From Tenuifilaceae bacterium CYCD (GTDB lineage: Bacteria > Bacteroidota > Bacteroidia > Bacteroidales > Tenuifilaceae): a stretch of DNA of 64,000 nt. Location: contig AP027304.1 of assembly GCA_036322835.1 (NCBI GenBank), positions 2,108,001 to 2,172,000 on the forward strand, in the 5' to 3' direction. Shown piece after piece: positions 29,930 to 38,356 of the stretch. Every line of letters starts with the position of its first letter. Within the stretch, counting starts at the first letter, position 1. The notes below the pieces were generated by a model, which was not told where the DNA came from, ran no database searches, and saw only the letters and a list, made by a program, of their open reading frames with translations. Made by a program: the position numbers and the translations under genes.

Positions 29930-30919
29930 ATGAATGAAGGCTTATACCCATTGAAGTTTAAACCTCAATTTAAGGAAAGAATTTGGGGTGGAAATAGGTT
30001 GAGGAAAGAACTGACAAAAGCGGTTCCGCGTGAGATTGATAAATGTGGCGAAAGTTGGGAGATTTCGGCTGTGCAGGATAGCGTATCTGTTGTTTCAAAT
30101 GGATACCTGGCTGGGAATGATTTGCAAGAACTTATTGAGGTATACATGGGCGAATTGGTGGGCGATTCAGTTTATGAGGAGTTTGGTGTTGAGTTTCCTT
30201 TGTTGATAAAACTTATTGATGCGCAGGATGTGCTGTCAATTCAGGTGCATCCCGATGATGAGACGGCTAAAAGAGTGCATCATGCCTATGGTAAAACTGA
30301 GATGTGGTATGTGATTTCGGCTGATGAGAATGCCGAAATAATTACAGGATTTAAGCGCGATATTACCCGGGAGGAATATCTCCAAAGTTTATCTGATGGA
30401 TTGCTCAAAGAACTTCTTAATGTTGAAAGGGTAAAGGTTGGCGATGTGTTTTTCATTCCGGCAGGAAGGGTGCATGCGATTGGTAAGGGAGTTATGCTTG
30501 CTGAAATTCAGCAAACCTCCGATATCACTTATCGAATTTACGATTGGGATAGGGTAGACTCAAATGGTAAATCCAGAGATCTACACAACGATTTGGCTAT
30601 TGATGTGATAGATTTTAAAGCGGTTAAAGATCCAAAATGGACTAGACCAAATGTAAATAACAAAACCGCAGAGTTGATTAACTGCGAGTATTTTACTGTT
30701 AACCGATTATCGTTTACTGAATCAATTAAAAGAGACTATAACGCGCTCGATTCGTTTGTTATTTTCATGTGTTTGCAGGGAGAGGCTTCTATTATTTATG
30801 GAAACGGAGCAGCAGAAAAGATTTCTATTGGAGAAACTGTACTTTTACCTGCCGACATAAAAGATGTCATATTACGACCTGCTGAAAAGTGCAGCATCTT
30901 AGAGATTTTTAAAAAATAA
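29930..30919 (+). CDS. manA: Class I mannose-6-phosphate isomerase
   Basis: A 329-residue zinc cupin enzyme interconverting mannose 6-phosphate and fructose 6-phosphate, feeding GDP-mannose. Signatures: KPQFKERIWGGNRLRKEL, VLSIQVHPDDETAKRVH with the zinc ligands, GKTEMWYVI, and PAGRVHAIGKGVMLAEIQQ. Length fits the short bacterial form. Mannose activation could serve the sugar-transfer operon at 38-44 kb (inference). Confidence 0.94.
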   Translation: MNEGLYPLKFKPQFKERIWGGNRLRKELTKAVPREIDKCGESWEISAVQDSVSVVSNGYLAGNDLQELIEVYMGELVGDSVYEEFGVEFPLLIKLIDAQDVLSIQVHPDDETAKRVHHAYGKTEMWYVISADENAEIITGFKRDITREEYLQSLSDGLLKELLNVERVKVGDVFFIPAGRVHAIGKGVMLAEIQQTSDITYRIYDWDRVDSNGKSRDLHNDLAIDVIDFKAVKDPKWTRPNVNNKTAELINCEYFTVNRLSFTESIKRDYNALDSFVIFMCLQGEASIIYGNGAAEKISIGETVLLPADIKDVILRPAEKCSILEIFKK

Positions 30920-31050: not shown

Positions 31051-31635
31051 ATGGACAACATAATTTATTTCATAAAATCTACACTATCAAACGAAATTGC
31101 ATCGAGTGGTTTCCCCTTAATATATAAGGGCGAAATGAACCATCAGATAATGCGCGCTTTTGCCTTTATGGCCAATAGGAAGATTTCTGAAATGCCCATT
31201 CCTACTGCTACCCGCAAAAGAGTTTTTCATATAATGATTGAGTGTCTTCAGAACATCACCAAGCACTCTGATGATTATGATGAGAAGGAAAAGCAAATTG
31301 GTAACGGTTTGTTTGTTGTTGGGAAGGATCGAGAATCATTCTATGTAATCACAGGAAACCTTGTTCGCAACGATAAAATGGTTATTCTTGAGGATCGGCT
31401 TGATAAGCTCAATAATGCAGCGCCCCCTCAGTTGAAAAAAATGTTTCTACAGCAAATGATAGATGGAGAACTGAATGAAAAGGGAGGAGCTGGTCTTGGT
31501 TTAATTGATATTGCTAGAAAATCGAAAAAAAAATTGTACTTCCACTTTGTTCCCTACGACAGTACCCGACATTTTTTTATTTTAGCCATAACCATCCCCA
31601 TTACGGCTGATGAGGATGATAACTCTGATTTTTAG
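31051..31635 (+). CDS. SiaB-family protein kinase (histidine-kinase-like ATPase fold)
   Basis: A 194-residue cytoplasmic protein of the SiaB/DUF6272 type. A GHKL-like ATP site is visible: N-box ECLQNITKHS (Glu64, Asn68) and a glycine-rich lid GGAGLGLIDIARKSKKKL (from 145). In Pseudomonas, SiaB phosphorylates SiaC and the SpoIIE-type phosphatase SiaA reverses this. Here a SpoIIE phosphatase gene lies 1.3 kb downstream on the same strand, with a repeat-protein gene between. No SiaC-like gene is in the window. Confidence 0.85.
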   Translation: MDNIIYFIKSTLSNEIASSGFPLIYKGEMNHQIMRAFAFMANRKISEMPIPTATRKRVFHIMIECLQNITKHSDDYDEKEKQIGNGLFVVGKDRESFYVITGNLVRNDKMVILEDRLDKLNNAAPPQLKKMFLQQMIDGELNEKGGAGLGLIDIARKSKKKLYFHFVPYDSTRHFFILAITIPITADEDDNSDF

Positions 31636-31791
31636 ATTCTCTCTTTAAACTCTCTGGTATTATTTTTGCATTAGGTTGAATGGTGCAAATATAGTTTTAT
31701 GAAGGTGAATGCTTTTAATTCTATATTTATTACATTTGTGTGATATTGTAGCAGCCATATATCGTTTTAGGAAAATTTAAATTTTTTAGTG

Positions 31792-32772
31792 ATGAAGCGC
31801 ATTTTCCTTGTAATACTTTCAATAATTTTTGGACTGAATACTTATGCACAAACTCGATCGGATTTAATTAGCCGGGAGAAGATTGCAAAGAATAAAATCG
31901 CGTCTGTCTCCCAGTGGACACATAAATTTGTTAAGGATAAGATTGATCCGAAAGGAACAGTAACTGTTGTAACTAATTATGATAAAGGCGGAAATCCGAT
32001 TGAGGTGATTAATTACAAGCCTGACGGAAGGGTGTCTTCGAGGCATGTTTATAAGTACGACGATCAAAATAGAAAAATAGAATATTCGCAGTATCAATTC
32101 CTGAAATCAGGTAAGGATATGGATTTGAGTTTTAAGCAAACTTTTTCTTATGATAGCAAAGGCAATAAAAAGTCGGAGTTAGGATTCGATGGGAAAACCA
32201 CCTATAGAATAGTGTATAGCTATTTTGATGATGGAAAACAGAAAGAAATTGTTAAATATAACGCTAGCAACACGGTTGAGGAACGTTGGGTTTTTGAGAA
32301 TAAAGGAAATACCACCAATGTAACCATCTATAAGCCGGAAGGCAAGGTTGATAAGAAAATTGTTAGAAAATATGATAATCGCTCTAATCTGCTTGATGAA
32401 ACAAATTATAGTGGAGCCGATAAAGAATTAGGGCGAACTACATTTGAATTCGGGAGCGATGGTCTTATGAAAGCCAAGTGCGAATATTATGGAGGAAGTC
32501 TTCGCGCATCATACAGTTATGTTTACGATGATAATGGTCAATTAATTGAGGTTTATCAAACCAATCCAAATGGGGACAAAATGCTCTATAGCGCTTATAA
32601 GTACGATGGAAAAGGAAATATGCTTGAGGAAAAATGGTTTGATGGGCAACCCGGAGAGTACTCCAAGCGTAATTTTAAACTTGATAATCGGGGTAATGTA
32701 AATGAGGTTGAAGCCTATTATTCCGATTATAATTATAAGGTAGTATATAGGTATACTTATAAATACAATTAA
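31792..32772 (+). CDS. Secreted YD-like repeat protein
   Basis: A 326-residue protein with a signal peptide (RIFLVILSIIFGLNTYAQ) and a body made of repeats of about 20-25 residues with a K-Y/F-D-x-x-N/G core: KYDDQNRKIEYSQYQF, SYDSKGNKKSELGFDG, KYDNRSNLLDETNYSG, VYDDNGQLIEVYQT, KYDGKGNMLEEKWFDG. These resemble YD/RHS repeats that wind into a beta sheet spiral, but there is no RHS core motif or toxin domain. ATG 31792 is preferred to the GTG before it. Probably periplasmic or surface; function unknown. Confidence 0.78.
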   Translation: MKRIFLVILSIIFGLNTYAQTRSDLISREKIAKNKIASVSQWTHKFVKDKIDPKGTVTVVTNYDKGGNPIEVINYKPDGRVSSRHVYKYDDQNRKIEYSQYQFLKSGKDMDLSFKQTFSYDSKGNKKSELGFDGKTTYRIVYSYFDDGKQKEIVKYNASNTVEERWVFENKGNTTNVTIYKPEGKVDKKIVRKYDNRSNLLDETNYSGADKELGRTTFEFGSDGLMKAKCEYYGGSLRASYSYVYDDNGQLIEVYQTNPNGDKMLYSAYKYDGKGNMLEEKWFDGQPGEYSKRNFKLDNRGNVNEVEAYYSDYNYKVVYRYTYKYN

Positions 32773-32792
32773 TTTTAGACAGATAATATGGG

Positions 32793-32822
32793 AAAAAGAG
32801 GGATGCCGATCCCTCTTTTTTA
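32793..32822 (+). terminator. Terminator after the YD-like repeat gene
   Basis: Perfect 12-bp stem (32793-32804 with 32809-32820) around GCCG, running into a T-rich tract. It separates the repeat protein from the propeller-phosphatase gene. Confidence 0.8.
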
Positions 32823-32896
32823 TATTAAAAAAAGTAGTAAAAACTTGCTTAAATATTCAAATTATTAATAAATTGATGGGGTTTTAATTCGAAGGA

Positions 32897-35800
32897 TTGG
32901 TGAAAAGGTTTTTATTCAATTTCATATTTGTATCATTATTTTTATTCTTTTATCAAAGTTCTGTTCCTCAGGATGTTGGTCGTTATCCTGTCGTCAATTT
33001 TCATCATAGGGAATATAGTGGACATTCACAAAGTTGGGCAATAGCGCAGGATAAGCGGGGTCTTATCTACATTGCCAATAATGTTGGAGTTATAGAGTAC
33101 GATGGAAGTAGTTGGCGTCACATACCAATAAATGGAGCCTTGCCAAGGTGTTTAGATGTAGATGATAATGGCAGGGTTTGGGTTGGAGCGCAGGATGAAT
33201 TTGGATACCTTGCTGCCGATTCAACTAATAGTCTTAAATTTCATTCTCTTACTAAATACTTACCCGAAACGTATAAGCCTATTGGCCTTGTTCGTCAGGT
33301 CTTTTCCACAAAGTCGGGTGTTTATTTCAGTTCGAATAGTCTTCTTTTTCAGTTCAAGCCCGATAACATTGTAAAGGTTTGGACTCCAAAGTCAATATTT
33401 CACAGAACTTATCTGGTTGATAACGTGCTCTTTGTGAATCAAAAAGATATTGGATTGGCTTTTATGTCGAATGATTCGTTGAAAATGATTCCTGGAGGCG
33501 AAATCTTTGGCTCAAAACTTATTTACTCAATACTTTCGTACGATGAGAATTATTTTTTAGTAGGAACTCAATCCGATGGTTTTTACTTATTAAACAAGAG
33601 CATCATTAATGGTAGTGAAGTAAATAATGATTTGCCCATTTTGGTTAAATTTTCAACTGATGATGATGCCTTTTTTCAGGAAAATTGGATTTATTACGGT
33701 TTAAAGGTTGACGAAAATGTTTTTGCAATTGGAACCTACCGAGGTGGTGTTGTTTTTATTAACAAAAAGGGCAATGTAATTAGACGTGTAAATCGTAAGT
33801 TAGGATTACAGGATGATGCCATTTGGTATCTGTTTAAGGATAATCAGGACAATCTATGGATGGCATTAAACAACGGCATTTCATACACCTCAATTTATTC
33901 ACAGCTTACTGAATGGAATGAGGCTAGTGGAATTAGTGGCGTTTTGCAATCTGTGGTGCGTTATGATGGATTTGTTTATATTTCCTCGAATGTGGGCGTT
34001 TTCCGTAAGGATGATGGCCGTTTTGAGCAGATAAAGGGCATTAGCGATTTGTCGTGGAAATTTAAAGTAATTAAAAAAGACGATGGAAACGAATCCTTAC
34101 TGGTAGGGACTTCTAGTGGAATATATGTGATTAAGAACAATATTGCTCAATTGATTGAAAATGGGAGATTCCATGCTTATACTTTTTGTCAATCAAACAT
34201 TTTTCCAAATGTTACATACGTTGGAACGCGCGATGGAATTGGTGTAATTCTGAATATCAAGGGACATTTTAAGTTTATTGGTAAATTAGATTCGCCTGCA
34301 GGCGAAGTATATACTCTTGTTGAGGATGCCGCTGGTGATCTTTGGTATTCTGAGCGATATAAAGGCGTGAGATATATTGATATAATTAACCCATATCAGT
34401 TAATTCACGAAAAACCGGTTTTATACACTCTTCCCAACAGTCCAAAATACGATGATATGTCAGTGGTGGTAATTGATGGGAATGTCAAGGCATCGTCCGA
34501 AGGAGGATTTTCAAAATTTGATAATAATCAAAACCAGTTTGTTCCGGACTCATCACTGGGTGTTGAATTTGCTGATGGAACTTATGGATTAAGGGTCTTT
34601 AATCAGGATATGAATGGAAATATTTGGTTTGAGGCATACAAATTTAGACCCAATAGATGGCTGGAGAAAGCAGTACAGTATCCGGGTAAAACTTATCGGA
34701 GGGAGCCTGCCCAGTTTCGGACTATTCCTGAAACCATATTTTTTGACATTCATACAGAGCCCGACAAAGTAACTTGGATTGCAGCGACAGATGGTTTGTA
34801 CAGGTATGACGGAGGTGCTGGCTTAGATAATAATAAATTGATAAAGGTTTTAATTAGGCAGGTTACTGCCAATAGAACTAAAAAAATATATAATGGGATT
34901 GAGTATTCGCTTAATTCGGATAAAACTTTTGCTCAAGCACAAAGCACGTTAGATTCTAAACCTGTAGAATTACCATATAAACTTAATTCTCTTTCGTTTT
35001 CATACTCATCTCCTTTTTTTGGCCAGCAGCAAAAACTGATGTATAGTTTTTACTTAGAGGGTTACGATGAAGAATGGAGCGATTGGACATATAGTCAGAT
35101 TAAAGAGTATACCAATTTACCATTTGGAACGTATGCATTTAAGGTTAAGGCAAAAAACCTTTTTGAGGTTGAAAGCCCTATCGCATCGTATTCTTTTCAT
35201 ATTAATAAACCTTTTTACTTAAGGTGGTATGCATTGGTGTTTTATTCATTAATCATAACAGTTATAGTGTGGTTTGTCGTTTATCTGAATACGCGAATGC
35301 TTAGGGTTTCAAATATTAAACTTCAAGAACTAGTTGATGTTAGAACAAAAGAATTAGTGAAGTCCGAGCAAATTCTGCTGGAAAAGAACATTGAATTGCA
35401 GCACCAAAAGGAGGAGATATTATCTCAACGGGATGAGATGCATGATCAGAATAAGCACATCAATGCTAGTATTCAGTATGCCACTACAATTCAACAGGCT
35501 ATATTGCCCGATTTATCAGCATCGTTTGAGGGCTTATTTGAACATTTTTTGATCTATTTGCCAAAGGAACTTGTTTCTGGTGATTTTTATTGGGTTTCGC
35601 AGAGCGGGACAAAAGGAAAGAAATCGGAGAGGGTTTTTGTTGCTGTGGTCGATTGTACTGGGCATGGCGTTCCAGGTGCATTCATGTCGCTGATTGGGAG
35701 TAGATTGTTAAGCGAGATAGTTAATGAAAGAAAGGTTCATAATCCTGCCGCCATTCTTACTGAGTTGAGCAGTGCCATTAATACGGCATTGAGGCAGGAT

Positions 35801-36235
35801 GTAAGTGAGAGTTTTGATGGGATGGACATTGCCCTTTGCATGATAGAGCGGAAGTCGGACGATTTGTATATTGTTACTTTTGCTGGTGCTAATCGTCCTC
35901 TATTTTACTATAACAAAGGCGATGAGCGGATTCAAACGCTTAAAGGAAATCGTAAATCAATTGGAAGCGTTTTGCCTGATGTGGATACTGAGTTCACGAA
36001 TTGGAAAATTACTATGCATCCAGGCGATATGCTATTTATGTGTACCGATGGTTTTACCGATCAAAATAATGCTTTTAAGCGTAAGTTTACAACCTGTCGA
36101 TTCCACACCTATTTGTTGGCGAATATTGATAAGCCTATGGGTAACATTGCCTCTGAATTAGTTCGTGAATTTGACGAGTTTAGAGGCGATGAGCATCAAC
36201 GCGATGATATCACTGTACTTGGAATAAAACTGTAA
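32897..36235 (+). CDS. Beta-propeller sensor fused to SpoIIE/PP2C phosphatase
   Basis: A 1112-residue membrane protein. Signal region about 1-22; two-component-regulator-type propeller repeats to about 680 (GLIYIANNVGVIEYDGSSW, NLWMALNNGISYTS); a Y_Y_Y domain (about 690-765, YSFYLEGYDEEWSDWTY); one membrane helix (about 775-797); a coiled coil (about 805-855); and a SpoIIE phosphatase domain (about 870-1112) with metal residues in LVSGDFYW, VDCTGHGVPGAFMS, CTDGFTDQNN and QRDDITVLGI, all intact. The start is TTG 32897 or GTG 32900. Sensing outside the membrane should control dephosphorylation inside; a partner of the SiaB kinase is plausible. Confidence 0.88.
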   Translation: MVKRFLFNFIFVSLFLFFYQSSVPQDVGRYPVVNFHHREYSGHSQSWAIAQDKRGLIYIANNVGVIEYDGSSWRHIPINGALPRCLDVDDNGRVWVGAQDEFGYLAADSTNSLKFHSLTKYLPETYKPIGLVRQVFSTKSGVYFSSNSLLFQFKPDNIVKVWTPKSIFHRTYLVDNVLFVNQKDIGLAFMSNDSLKMIPGGEIFGSKLIYSILSYDENYFLVGTQSDGFYLLNKSIINGSEVNNDLPILVKFSTDDDAFFQENWIYYGLKVDENVFAIGTYRGGVVFINKKGNVIRRVNRKLGLQDDAIWYLFKDNQDNLWMALNNGISYTSIYSQLTEWNEASGISGVLQSVVRYDGFVYISSNVGVFRKDDGRFEQIKGISDLSWKFKVIKKDDGNESLLVGTSSGIYVIKNNIAQLIENGRFHAYTFCQSNIFPNVTYVGTRDGIGVILNIKGHFKFIGKLDSPAGEVYTLVEDAAGDLWYSERYKGVRYIDIINPYQLIHEKPVLYTLPNSPKYDDMSVVVIDGNVKASSEGGFSKFDNNQNQFVPDSSLGVEFADGTYGLRVFNQDMNGNIWFEAYKFRPNRWLEKAVQYPGKTYRREPAQFRTIPETIFFDIHTEPDKVTWIAATDGLYRYDGGAGLDNNKLIKVLIRQVTANRTKKIYNGIEYSLNSDKTFAQAQSTLDSKPVELPYKLNSLSFSYSSPFFGQQQKLMYSFYLEGYDEEWSDWTYSQIKEYTNLPFGTYAFKVKAKNLFEVESPIASYSFHINKPFYLRWYALVFYSLIITVIVWFVVYLNTRMLRVSNIKLQELVDVRTKELVKSEQILLEKNIELQHQKEEILSQRDEMHDQNKHINASIQYATTIQQAILPDLSASFEGLFEHFLIYLPKELVSGDFYWVSQSGTKGKKSERVFVAVVDCTGHGVPGAFMSLIGSRLLSEIVNERKVHNPAAILTELSSAINTALRQDVSESFDGMDIALCMIERKSDDLYIVTFAGANRPLFYYNKGDERIQTLKGNRKSIGSVLPDVDTEFTNWKITMHPGDMLFMCTDGFTDQNNAFKRKFTTCRFHTYLLANIDKPMGNIASELVREFDEFRGDEHQRDDITVLGIKL

Positions 36236-36268: not shown

Positions 36269-38356
36269 ATGCAAATTAAAAAAACACTTATTGTGCTTAT
36301 GGCACCCATTCTTCTTTTTGCATCGTGCAAAAATGATGCAACTCCTAAGGAGGAGGTGATTGGACCGAATAAGCCGAATATTATCAATGGTATTCTTACC
36401 CCAGAGGTTCTATGGTCGTTTGGCCGTTTAGGGGAATTTGCGGTTTCTCCAAATAATAAAACAATTGCTTATACCGTAACATGGTATTCAATTGAAAAGA
36501 ATAAGGGAAATAGCGAACTATTTGTGATGAATGTTGATGGTTCGGACAAAAAGCAGTTGACATTCACAAACGCTCAGGAGTATAATCCGCAGTGGGTTGA
36601 TGAGAGCACTCTTGCATTCCTTTCTACCGAAGGAGGTGTTTCGCAAGTATGGACAATGAGTAAAGATGGATCAAACCTAAAAAAAGTAGAAGGATATGCT
36701 GAAGATATTAATGGATTTGCGCTTTCGCCAGATTGCAAGAAACTGCTTTTTATTGCAGAGGTGAAGGTTGGGAAAGATGTGGCTGATCTTTATCCCGATT
36801 TACCCAAAACAAGCGGAATGATTTATGAGGATTTAATGTACAGGCATTGGGATACATGGGAGGATAGCATTTTTAGCCATGTTTTTGTTGCAGATTTCTC
36901 GTTGGGCAAACTGGAGAATGTTAAGGATATCATGCCTAATGAGCCTTACGACAGTCCTCTAAAACCTTTTGGTGGCATGGAGGAAATTTCTTGGAATTTT
37001 GATGGAAGTGCTGTTGCTTACACTTGCAAGAAATTGGTCGGGAAAGAGTATTCGTTTAGCACCAATTCTGATGTCTACCTTTATAATTTGGCTTCGGGAC
37101 AAACCAAAAATCTTACCGAGGGTATGCCGGGTTACGATATGCAGCCAACCTTCTCGCCTGATGGAAAAAAGATGACTTGGATATCGATGGAGCGTGGTGG
37201 ATTTGAGGCCGATAAGGAGCGCTTATTCGTTATGGATTTAGAAACAGGCGCAAAAACTTATCTTACCAAGAATTTTGATTATTCTGCTGCAAACATTCTT
37301 TGGACGTCGGATAGTAAATCAATTTACTTTGTTTCGGGTGTTGAGGCTACCTATCAGGTTTACAGAATGGCTTTAACCGATGAAATGCCAACCGCTGTAA
37401 CAAAAGGTTTACACGATTATCATTCTATTGCACTGGTTGGTGACAATTTGGTTGGTAGCAAATGTTCTATAGTAAAACCCGATGAAATTTATCGGATTGA
37501 TGCAAAATCAGGTGAGGAAACGGAAATTTCCTTTATCAATAAAGATTTGCTGGCACAGTTGACCATGCCAGCAGTTCAACGCCGTTGGGTTAAATCTACC
37601 GATGGAAAGATGGTGCATACATGGGTAATTCTACCTCCAAATTTCGATAGCACCAAAACATACCCCGCTTTGCTTTACTGCGAGGGTGGTCCGCAAAGTG
37701 CAGTAAGTCAGTTCTGGAGTTACCGTTGGAATTTTTCCATCATGGCATCGAACGGCTATGTGGTGGTGGCCCCAAGTAGGAGAGGAACAACCACATTTGG
37801 ACAGGCATGGACCGATCAGATTAGCAAGGATCATGGTGGACAGGAAATGAGAGATCTTTTGTGTGCGATTGATGAGGTGAAGAAAGAGCCTTGGGTTAAT
37901 GCGAATAAACTAGGGGCTATTGGTGCAAGTTATGGTGGTGAAACCGTGTTCTGGCTCGCCGGAAACCATCAGAAACGCTTCAAAGCATTCATTGCGCATT
38001 GTGGAGTGTTTAATGCTGAGACGGAGTATATGACAACCGAGGAGATGTTTTTTGATAATTGGGAGAGTGGTGGTGCTCCATGGGAAGCTGACAATAAAGT
38101 TGCAATGCATAGTTTTGCTCAAAGCCCACATAAGTTTGTAAAGAACTGGGATACCCCTATTTTAATTGTGCATGGTGGAAAAGATTTCCGTATTCCATAT
38201 ACTCAGGGAATGGCTGCATTTAATGCTGCAAGAATGCTGGGAATTCCTAGCCGATTCCTTTTCTTCCCCGATGAGAACCACTGGGTTTTAAAGCCACAGA
38301 ACGGTATTTTATGGCAAAGAGAGTTTAAGAGTTGGCTCGATAAATGGTTGAAATAA
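36269..38356 (+). CDS. S9 family peptidase, lipoprotein (copy 1)
   Basis: A 695-residue prolyl-oligopeptidase-type serine peptidase. Lipobox LLFASC; an N-terminal beta-propeller with dipeptidyl-peptidase-like repeats (LFVMNVDGSDKKQLT, TFSPDGKKMTW); and a C-terminal alpha/beta hydrolase domain with Ser554 in GASYGGETV, Asp639 in HGGKDFRIP and His671 in PDENHWVLKP. It should release dipeptides or acyl-amino acids in the periplasm. A close paralogue lies at 46.2-48.3 kb. The residue after the nucleophile motif is Glu (GGE) where the paralogue has Tyr. Confidence 0.93.
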   Translation: MQIKKTLIVLMAPILLFASCKNDATPKEEVIGPNKPNIINGILTPEVLWSFGRLGEFAVSPNNKTIAYTVTWYSIEKNKGNSELFVMNVDGSDKKQLTFTNAQEYNPQWVDESTLAFLSTEGGVSQVWTMSKDGSNLKKVEGYAEDINGFALSPDCKKLLFIAEVKVGKDVADLYPDLPKTSGMIYEDLMYRHWDTWEDSIFSHVFVADFSLGKLENVKDIMPNEPYDSPLKPFGGMEEISWNFDGSAVAYTCKKLVGKEYSFSTNSDVYLYNLASGQTKNLTEGMPGYDMQPTFSPDGKKMTWISMERGGFEADKERLFVMDLETGAKTYLTKNFDYSAANILWTSDSKSIYFVSGVEATYQVYRMALTDEMPTAVTKGLHDYHSIALVGDNLVGSKCSIVKPDEIYRIDAKSGEETEISFINKDLLAQLTMPAVQRRWVKSTDGKMVHTWVILPPNFDSTKTYPALLYCEGGPQSAVSQFWSYRWNFSIMASNGYVVVAPSRRGTTTFGQAWTDQISKDHGGQEMRDLLCAIDEVKKEPWVNANKLGAIGASYGGETVFWLAGNHQKRFKAFIAHCGVFNAETEYMTTEEMFFDNWESGGAPWEADNKVAMHSFAQSPHKFVKNWDTPILIVHGGKDFRIPYTQGMAAFNAARMLGIPSRFLFFPDENHWVLKPQNGILWQREFKSWLDKWLK

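Follow-up and report, generated by a model that had tools for sequence, protein, structure and literature searches.

An operon-less SiaB-type kinase and its place in a candidate SiaABC network without c-di-GMP in a Tenuifilaceae bacterium

The kinase, the repeat protein and the phosphatase

The window, a stretch of 64,000 nucleotides (nt) from the genome of Tenuifilaceae bacterium CYCD (contig AP027304.1), carries on its forward strand a gene for a SiaB-type kinase, a gene for a secreted YD/RHS-repeat protein (here YD) and a gene for a SpoIIE phosphatase with a predicted propeller. A preliminary description had placed these three in a row and had assigned kinase and phosphatase to the opposing enzymes of known partner-switching systems. 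We found all three at these positions and on this strand; their reading frames are kept in relatives and are therefore not chance, and the family scores agree with the two opposing enzyme classes of SiaABC, a partner-switching system known from Pseudomonas.

The siaB gene (31051-31635, +; 194 amino acids (aa); "type A") has no siaC neighbour and was identified with Pfam, NCBIfam, the PDB entry 6kko and motif alignment. Its product scores 133 bits against Pfam DUF6272 (cut-off 26.6) and 150.5 bits against the NCBIfam model SiaB_fam_kinase (NF038262), above the subfamily cut-off of 85; against the SiaB equivalog NF038264 it reaches 64.1 bits and stays below the cut-off of 225. Its sole PDB sequence match is SiaB in the SiaB-SiaC complex 6kko (E 6e-8). 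The GHKL-type boxes E-x-x-x-N and GGxGLG are present, also when aligned with 6kko, and are intact in all five SiaB proteins of the genome. The protein is thus a SiaB family member, and it is predicted to be active as a kinase.

The phosphatase gene (32897-36235, +; Pfam, NCBIfam and a PDB match) probably starts at GTG 32900 rather than at the listed TTG 32897. Its product consists of a signal peptide, a Reg_prop/Y_Y_Y region, one transmembrane segment seen as a single strong hydrophobic peak at residues ~775-799, a helical linker and a SiaA-like SpoIIE/PP2C domain, with Pfam scores of 84.9 bits for SpoIIE, 43.2 for Y_Y_Y and 35.1 for Reg_prop. Residues 830-1110 match the solved PP2C domain of SiaA (6k4e, 125 bits); no other PP2C structure of the PDB is matched at E up to 1e-4. 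Taking the acidic metal-site residues of SiaA from PMC7647112, we located the corresponding motifs SGDF (D896), DCTGHG (D919), TDG (D1051) and QRDD (D1103/D1104), which are invariant among eight aligned orthologues. The cut-off of the SiaA equivalog NF038263 is not reached (174 versus 700 bits, C-terminal part only), and phosphatase activity is predicted. As in propeller hybrid two-component sensors such as 4a2l, Reg_prop and Y_Y_Y precede one transmembrane segment; however, no kinase domain is found among the Pfam matches, and the SiaA-like PP2C domain of SpoIIE type stands in place of the histidine kinase. The large extracytoplasmic propeller and Y_Y_Y region of the preliminary description is borne out as a large predicted outer part, while the term propeller comes from the Pfam Reg_prop score, since the structure model is too poor to count blades (mean predicted local distance difference test score (pLDDT) 57.9, predicted TM-score 0.34) and the PDB match 4a2l spans the Y_Y_Y part alone.

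The intervening YD gene (31789-32772, +; ATG at 31792; 327 aa; Pfam, orthologues and a structure model) encodes a protein with one RHS/YD repeat stretch above the Pfam cut-off (26.7 versus 22 bits) and an N-terminus that by eye is signal-peptide-like. Its confident structure model (mean pLDDT 87.9) consists of strands throughout past residue 36 and forms an open single sheet. In Foldseek its best matches by structure, at E 4e-12 to 7e-8, are to RHS shells, to teneurins and to porin-like proteins of Bacteroides (4ghb), with low TM-scores of 0.12-0.39 of the query; they have the YD-repeat strand pattern in common with the window protein. Unlike the RHS shells, the model has no closed shell. An RHS toxin was considered and ruled out: the protein is only 327 aa long, its repeats run to the C-terminus of the open sheet and it contains no toxin domain.

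Gene order in the family and transcription units

We surveyed the neighbourhood in 27 genomes of the Tenuifilaceae-like family, which represent nine genera and include Perlabentimonas gracilis. The recurrence that a signalling set of three genes would lead one to expect was found for siaB and YD and only in part for the phosphatase. Orthologues of the window siaB (at least 285 bits) are present in 25 of the 27 genomes, the two without one being 85% and 67% complete, and YD follows directly in all 25. Phosphatase orthologues occur in 24 of 27 genomes, 23 above 1000 bits and one split across two contigs. Among the 22 genomes holding siaB-YD and the phosphatase, the latter stands right after YD in 10, all from three of the nine genera (g1, g3 and g6), and away from it in 12, including two in which it lies on the same contig ~68 kb off. 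The pairing of siaB with YD therefore extends across the family, and only a part of the family has the phosphatase beside them.

The phosphatase is also linked to dpp5, a dipeptidyl-peptidase gene that follows it in the window (36269-38356, +; Pfam, NCBIfam and neighbourhoods). It lies 33-67 nt before dpp5 in g1 and g3, ~100 nt away in two g4 genomes and one intervening gene away in another, and the two are also neighbours, in reversed order, in g2. Upstream of siaB, manA (mannose-6-phosphate isomerase; 29930-30919, +; same sources) is the last gene of a conserved block.

A terminator-like hairpin followed by a T run (32784-32827, +) separates YD from the phosphatase; its folding energy is -19.7 kcal/mol (z -4.34; none of 200 shuffles as stable). 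In the sister species G002 the same hairpin shape is kept by eye while bases have changed. The siaB-YD gap is 154 nt long and contains two islands identical in the sister species, the remainder having drifted. Island 1 (31653-31668, +) holds TATTTTTG and island 2 (31722-31738, +) holds TACATTTG; both fit TAnnTTTG, the -7 motif of Bacteroidota, and the second is a possible YD promoter. The hairpin and the promoter-like islands therefore suggest that siaB, YD and the phosphatase are likely three transcription units rather than one operon. With adjacency in three of nine genera and the hairpin, one conserved module of three genes is ruled out. The signalling set of the preliminary description is not upheld in that form, and its phosphatase is one of 28 SpoIIE proteins in the genome.

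Read as a dedicated pair, SiaB of the window and the propeller phosphatase would together set the state of a single distant SiaC, and YD would be a ligand or partner. This reading draws on the co-directional adjacency in the 10 genomes of g1, g3 and g6, on the intactness of both proteins and on the SiaA-like phosphatase C-terminus. We consider it unlikely, however, given the 12 genomes in which the two are apart, three further genomes (G010, G015 and G023) in which siaB-YD is kept without such a phosphatase orthologue, the hairpin before the phosphatase and the additional link of the latter to dpp5.

Alternatively, siaB and YD could be a functional unit in which a periplasmic or surface YD informs the SiaB pathway about the state of the envelope or is a product under the control of that pathway. 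The constant adjacency across nine genera, with a variable gene following YD, is what such a unit would produce, as is the distribution of YD: orthologues of at least 241 bits occur in 26 of the 27 family genomes and none outside the family, the next best matches being 53 bits outside and 56 bits within. However, the upstream block (manA and beyond) is conserved too, so that the link must be partly discounted and synteny alone may explain it; YD also appears to be served by promoter islands of its own, and SiaB has no membrane part. This unit is therefore improbable as well, and YD is best read as a secreted protein with a transcript of its own, tied to siaB by gene position.

SiaA-, SiaB- and SiaC-like proteins of the genome

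The preliminary description had postulated a SiaC-like target outside the region it covered and had suggested looking for DUF1987 elsewhere in the genome. This expectation was correct, as the genome (3.92 Mb, one contig) encodes 16 SiaC proteins together with five SiaB proteins and 28 SpoIIE domains. None of the SiaC genes lies within the window (2108001-2172000), the nearest being at 2362483. The phosphosite aligned to T68 of solved SiaC is Ser or Thr in 15 of the 16; the paralogue at 1641612-1642016 has Gly and may be a switch refractory to phosphorylation. Three siaC genes stand in tandem at 3334905-3336127 and two at 820803-821740, the latter convergent with a gene for a 7TMR-DISM-GAF protein that has no phosphatase domain. 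Three of the five siaB genes adjoin a siaC, whereas the window siaB and the siaB at 75396 do not, and a SiaC tree did not single out a partner for the window SiaB.

The SpoIIE proteins carry diverse input regions. Among the 23 of 28 whose architecture was scanned, 13 have TPR repeats, seven have propeller/Y_Y_Y regions (one by a sub-cut-off Y_Y_Y match only), one has PAS/GAF, one has HAMP and one has nothing else. SiaA is the top NCBIfam match for the window phosphatase and for all eight others tested, at 172-214 bits and in each case below the equivalog cut-off.

In a quickly built tree with 39 SiaB sequences, the window type (10 sequences) has a Shimodaira-Hasegawa-like approximate likelihood ratio (SH-aLRT) support of 100, and type B, to which the other orphan belongs (4 sequences), has 99. 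The two types cluster with one gene of the genome G044 (SH-aLRT 88), and an operonic siaB of G051 neighbours this orphan-type cluster (99). The simplest story would be that operon-less SiaB kinases descended from operonic siaB by loss of the siaC neighbour. In our genome, the type B orphan (region 73446-77711) is flanked by a gene for an M49-type peptidase and one for a 640-aa secreted protein without a Pfam match, an order repeated in G017.

The best relative of the window SiaB outside the family, a G044 protein of 47% identity, is encoded just before a PAS-class III nucleotide cyclase gene (L107:7783-10113, +), whose cyclase domain matches PF00211 at E 5.5e-52. The orphan SiaB of the window clade could have a class III cyclase under their control, much as SiaD is controlled by SiaABC in Pseudomonas. 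This association was seen once, though, and no such domain was found at the loci examined around the sia genes of our own genome; we regard this as very improbable.

The TerB-ABC-ABC2 exporter and the proposed network

SiaD is the output in Pseudomonas, but a search for its GGDEF domain, which gave matches in 8 of 14 control genomes, found none in our genome or in any of 60 relatives; a diguanylate cyclase as output here is thereby ruled out. In the place of siaD we find an exporter gene. In our genome, a 1028-aa TerB/ABC ATPase/ABC-2 membrane protein related to ABCG1/ABCG2 is encoded immediately downstream of genes for a PAS-SpoIIE protein, SiaB and SiaC; genes for a lipoprotein-like protein and a small secreted one come next. 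Another siaB-siaC pair faces a homologue of this exporter gene. Among the 36 best-scoring exporter genes, at least 34 are immediately preceded by a listed siaC, across a gap of 21-371 nt (median 52). At 17 loci outside the family, the exporter is found at siaC in 14, and seven have the full order SpoIIE-siaB-siaC-exporter. In the 60 relatives (exporter threshold E up to 1e-100), SiaB, SiaC and exporter are present in the same 39 genomes, and the exporter is present in none of the 21 without SiaB and SiaC. The SpoIIE copies number 4-45 in those 39 genomes and 0-2 in the other 21.

On this basis we propose, with a probability of roughly 60%, that the window siaB encodes an orphan kinase acting in trans on SiaC and that the phosphatase is one of many sensors in a network that is free of cyclic di-GMP (c-di-GMP) and linked to an exporter. 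The operon-less SiaB would phosphorylate one SiaC protein or several among the 15 that keep the Ser/Thr site, and phosphorylation would switch SiaC off its targets. Removal of the phosphate would fall to SpoIIE phosphatases of the SiaA-like kind, each of which has a sensor of its own. The propeller phosphatase would be one of ~28 such sensors that became a neighbour of siaB-YD in one lineage and need not share its SiaC. In this order the network would work without c-di-GMP, its commonest physical partner being the TerB-ABC-ABC2 (ABCG-like) exporter, which would be the likeliest direct target of operonic SiaC, such as the one encoded at 1592842 in our genome. More broadly, roughly one third or more of the sampled Bacteroidales families may have a c-di-GMP-free, many-to-many SiaABC network with dozens of sensor phosphatases, up to ~20 SiaC proteins and few kinases, some of them operon-less, in which unphosphorylated SiaC acts directly on a TerB-ABCG-type exporter; this extension is tentative, and we would give it somewhat less than even odds.

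Several observations weigh against the proposed network. Three of the 28 SpoIIE loci have no match to the window catalytic domain (E 1e-3), so that the pool of phosphatases is not uniform, and two of the four exporter copies in our genome have no nearby sia gene. Fifteen of the 17 outside loci were picked for SiaB and SiaC together (or, in G030, for SiaC alone). The co-occurrence is clustered on an rpoB tree, with at least five changes of which only two are forced by well-supported branches, and the shared distribution therefore largely reflects shared ancestry; a test on independent pairs had two supported pairs, too few to reach significance. We regard the physical linkage of siaC and exporter as better evidence than co-occurrence. 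Additionally, a simple promoter and terminator scan gave no excess over shuffles, with 31 sigma-70 style promoters against 30.8 expected and six terminators against 4.8, the hairpin at 32784-32827 not being among them.

The proposed network is a variant of known SiaABC partner switching. It shares with SiaABCD of Pseudomonas aeruginosa the SiaB, SiaC and SiaA-like parts, the N-T/S-x-S phosphosite of SiaC and SpoIIE-siaB-siaC operons, and the SiaABCD complexes 6kko, 6k4e and 7e6g are PDB matches of proteins found here. It differs in having no GGDEF protein, an exporter gene in the siaD place, 16 SiaC and 28 SpoIIE proteins instead of one each, and a window siaB without a siaC neighbour; the novelty lies in a SiaABC network that lacks c-di-GMP and in which an exporter stands where SiaD would be. 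In partner switching of the RsbU/RsbW/RsbV type, a kinase, a PP2C phosphatase and a STAS-like protein form the switch, and many sensor phosphatases can serve few kinases. The switch logic is the same here, but with a DUF6272 kinase and a DUF1987 switch protein instead. No sigma factor turned up at the loci examined, where no search was aimed at sigma factors.

According to PMC7647112 and PMC8457831, SiaC activates one diguanylate cyclase and is known from a single organism; PMC8457831 suggests a general role of DUF1987 proteins in modulating their neighbours. A limited literature search gave no Bacteroidota SiaABC system among the matches listed. If the proposed network is real, DUF1987 would gain a second kind of target, the exporter being its recurrent neighbour in genomes without a diguanylate cyclase, and dozens of orphan SpoIIE phosphatase sensors in Bacteroidota would gain a common pathway. 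The window siaB, as an operon-less kinase with 16 possible substrates, poses the question of wiring cleanly.

Three minor observations concern sia genes at large. A 313-aa transposase-like open reading frame with the same sequence start is adjacent to four sia loci of our genome (3561514, 827676, 2576008 and 26588) or at most a few kb away from them, which may be chance. In several relatives, frames of ~375-390 aa with two SiaB matches (e.g. G058:C27:116815-117867) suggest double-SiaB proteins. In G030, a natural SiaB-SiaC fusion of 291 aa (L156:8927-9799, -) is followed by a second siaC, and this fusion supports a kinase and a switch protein acting together in this order.

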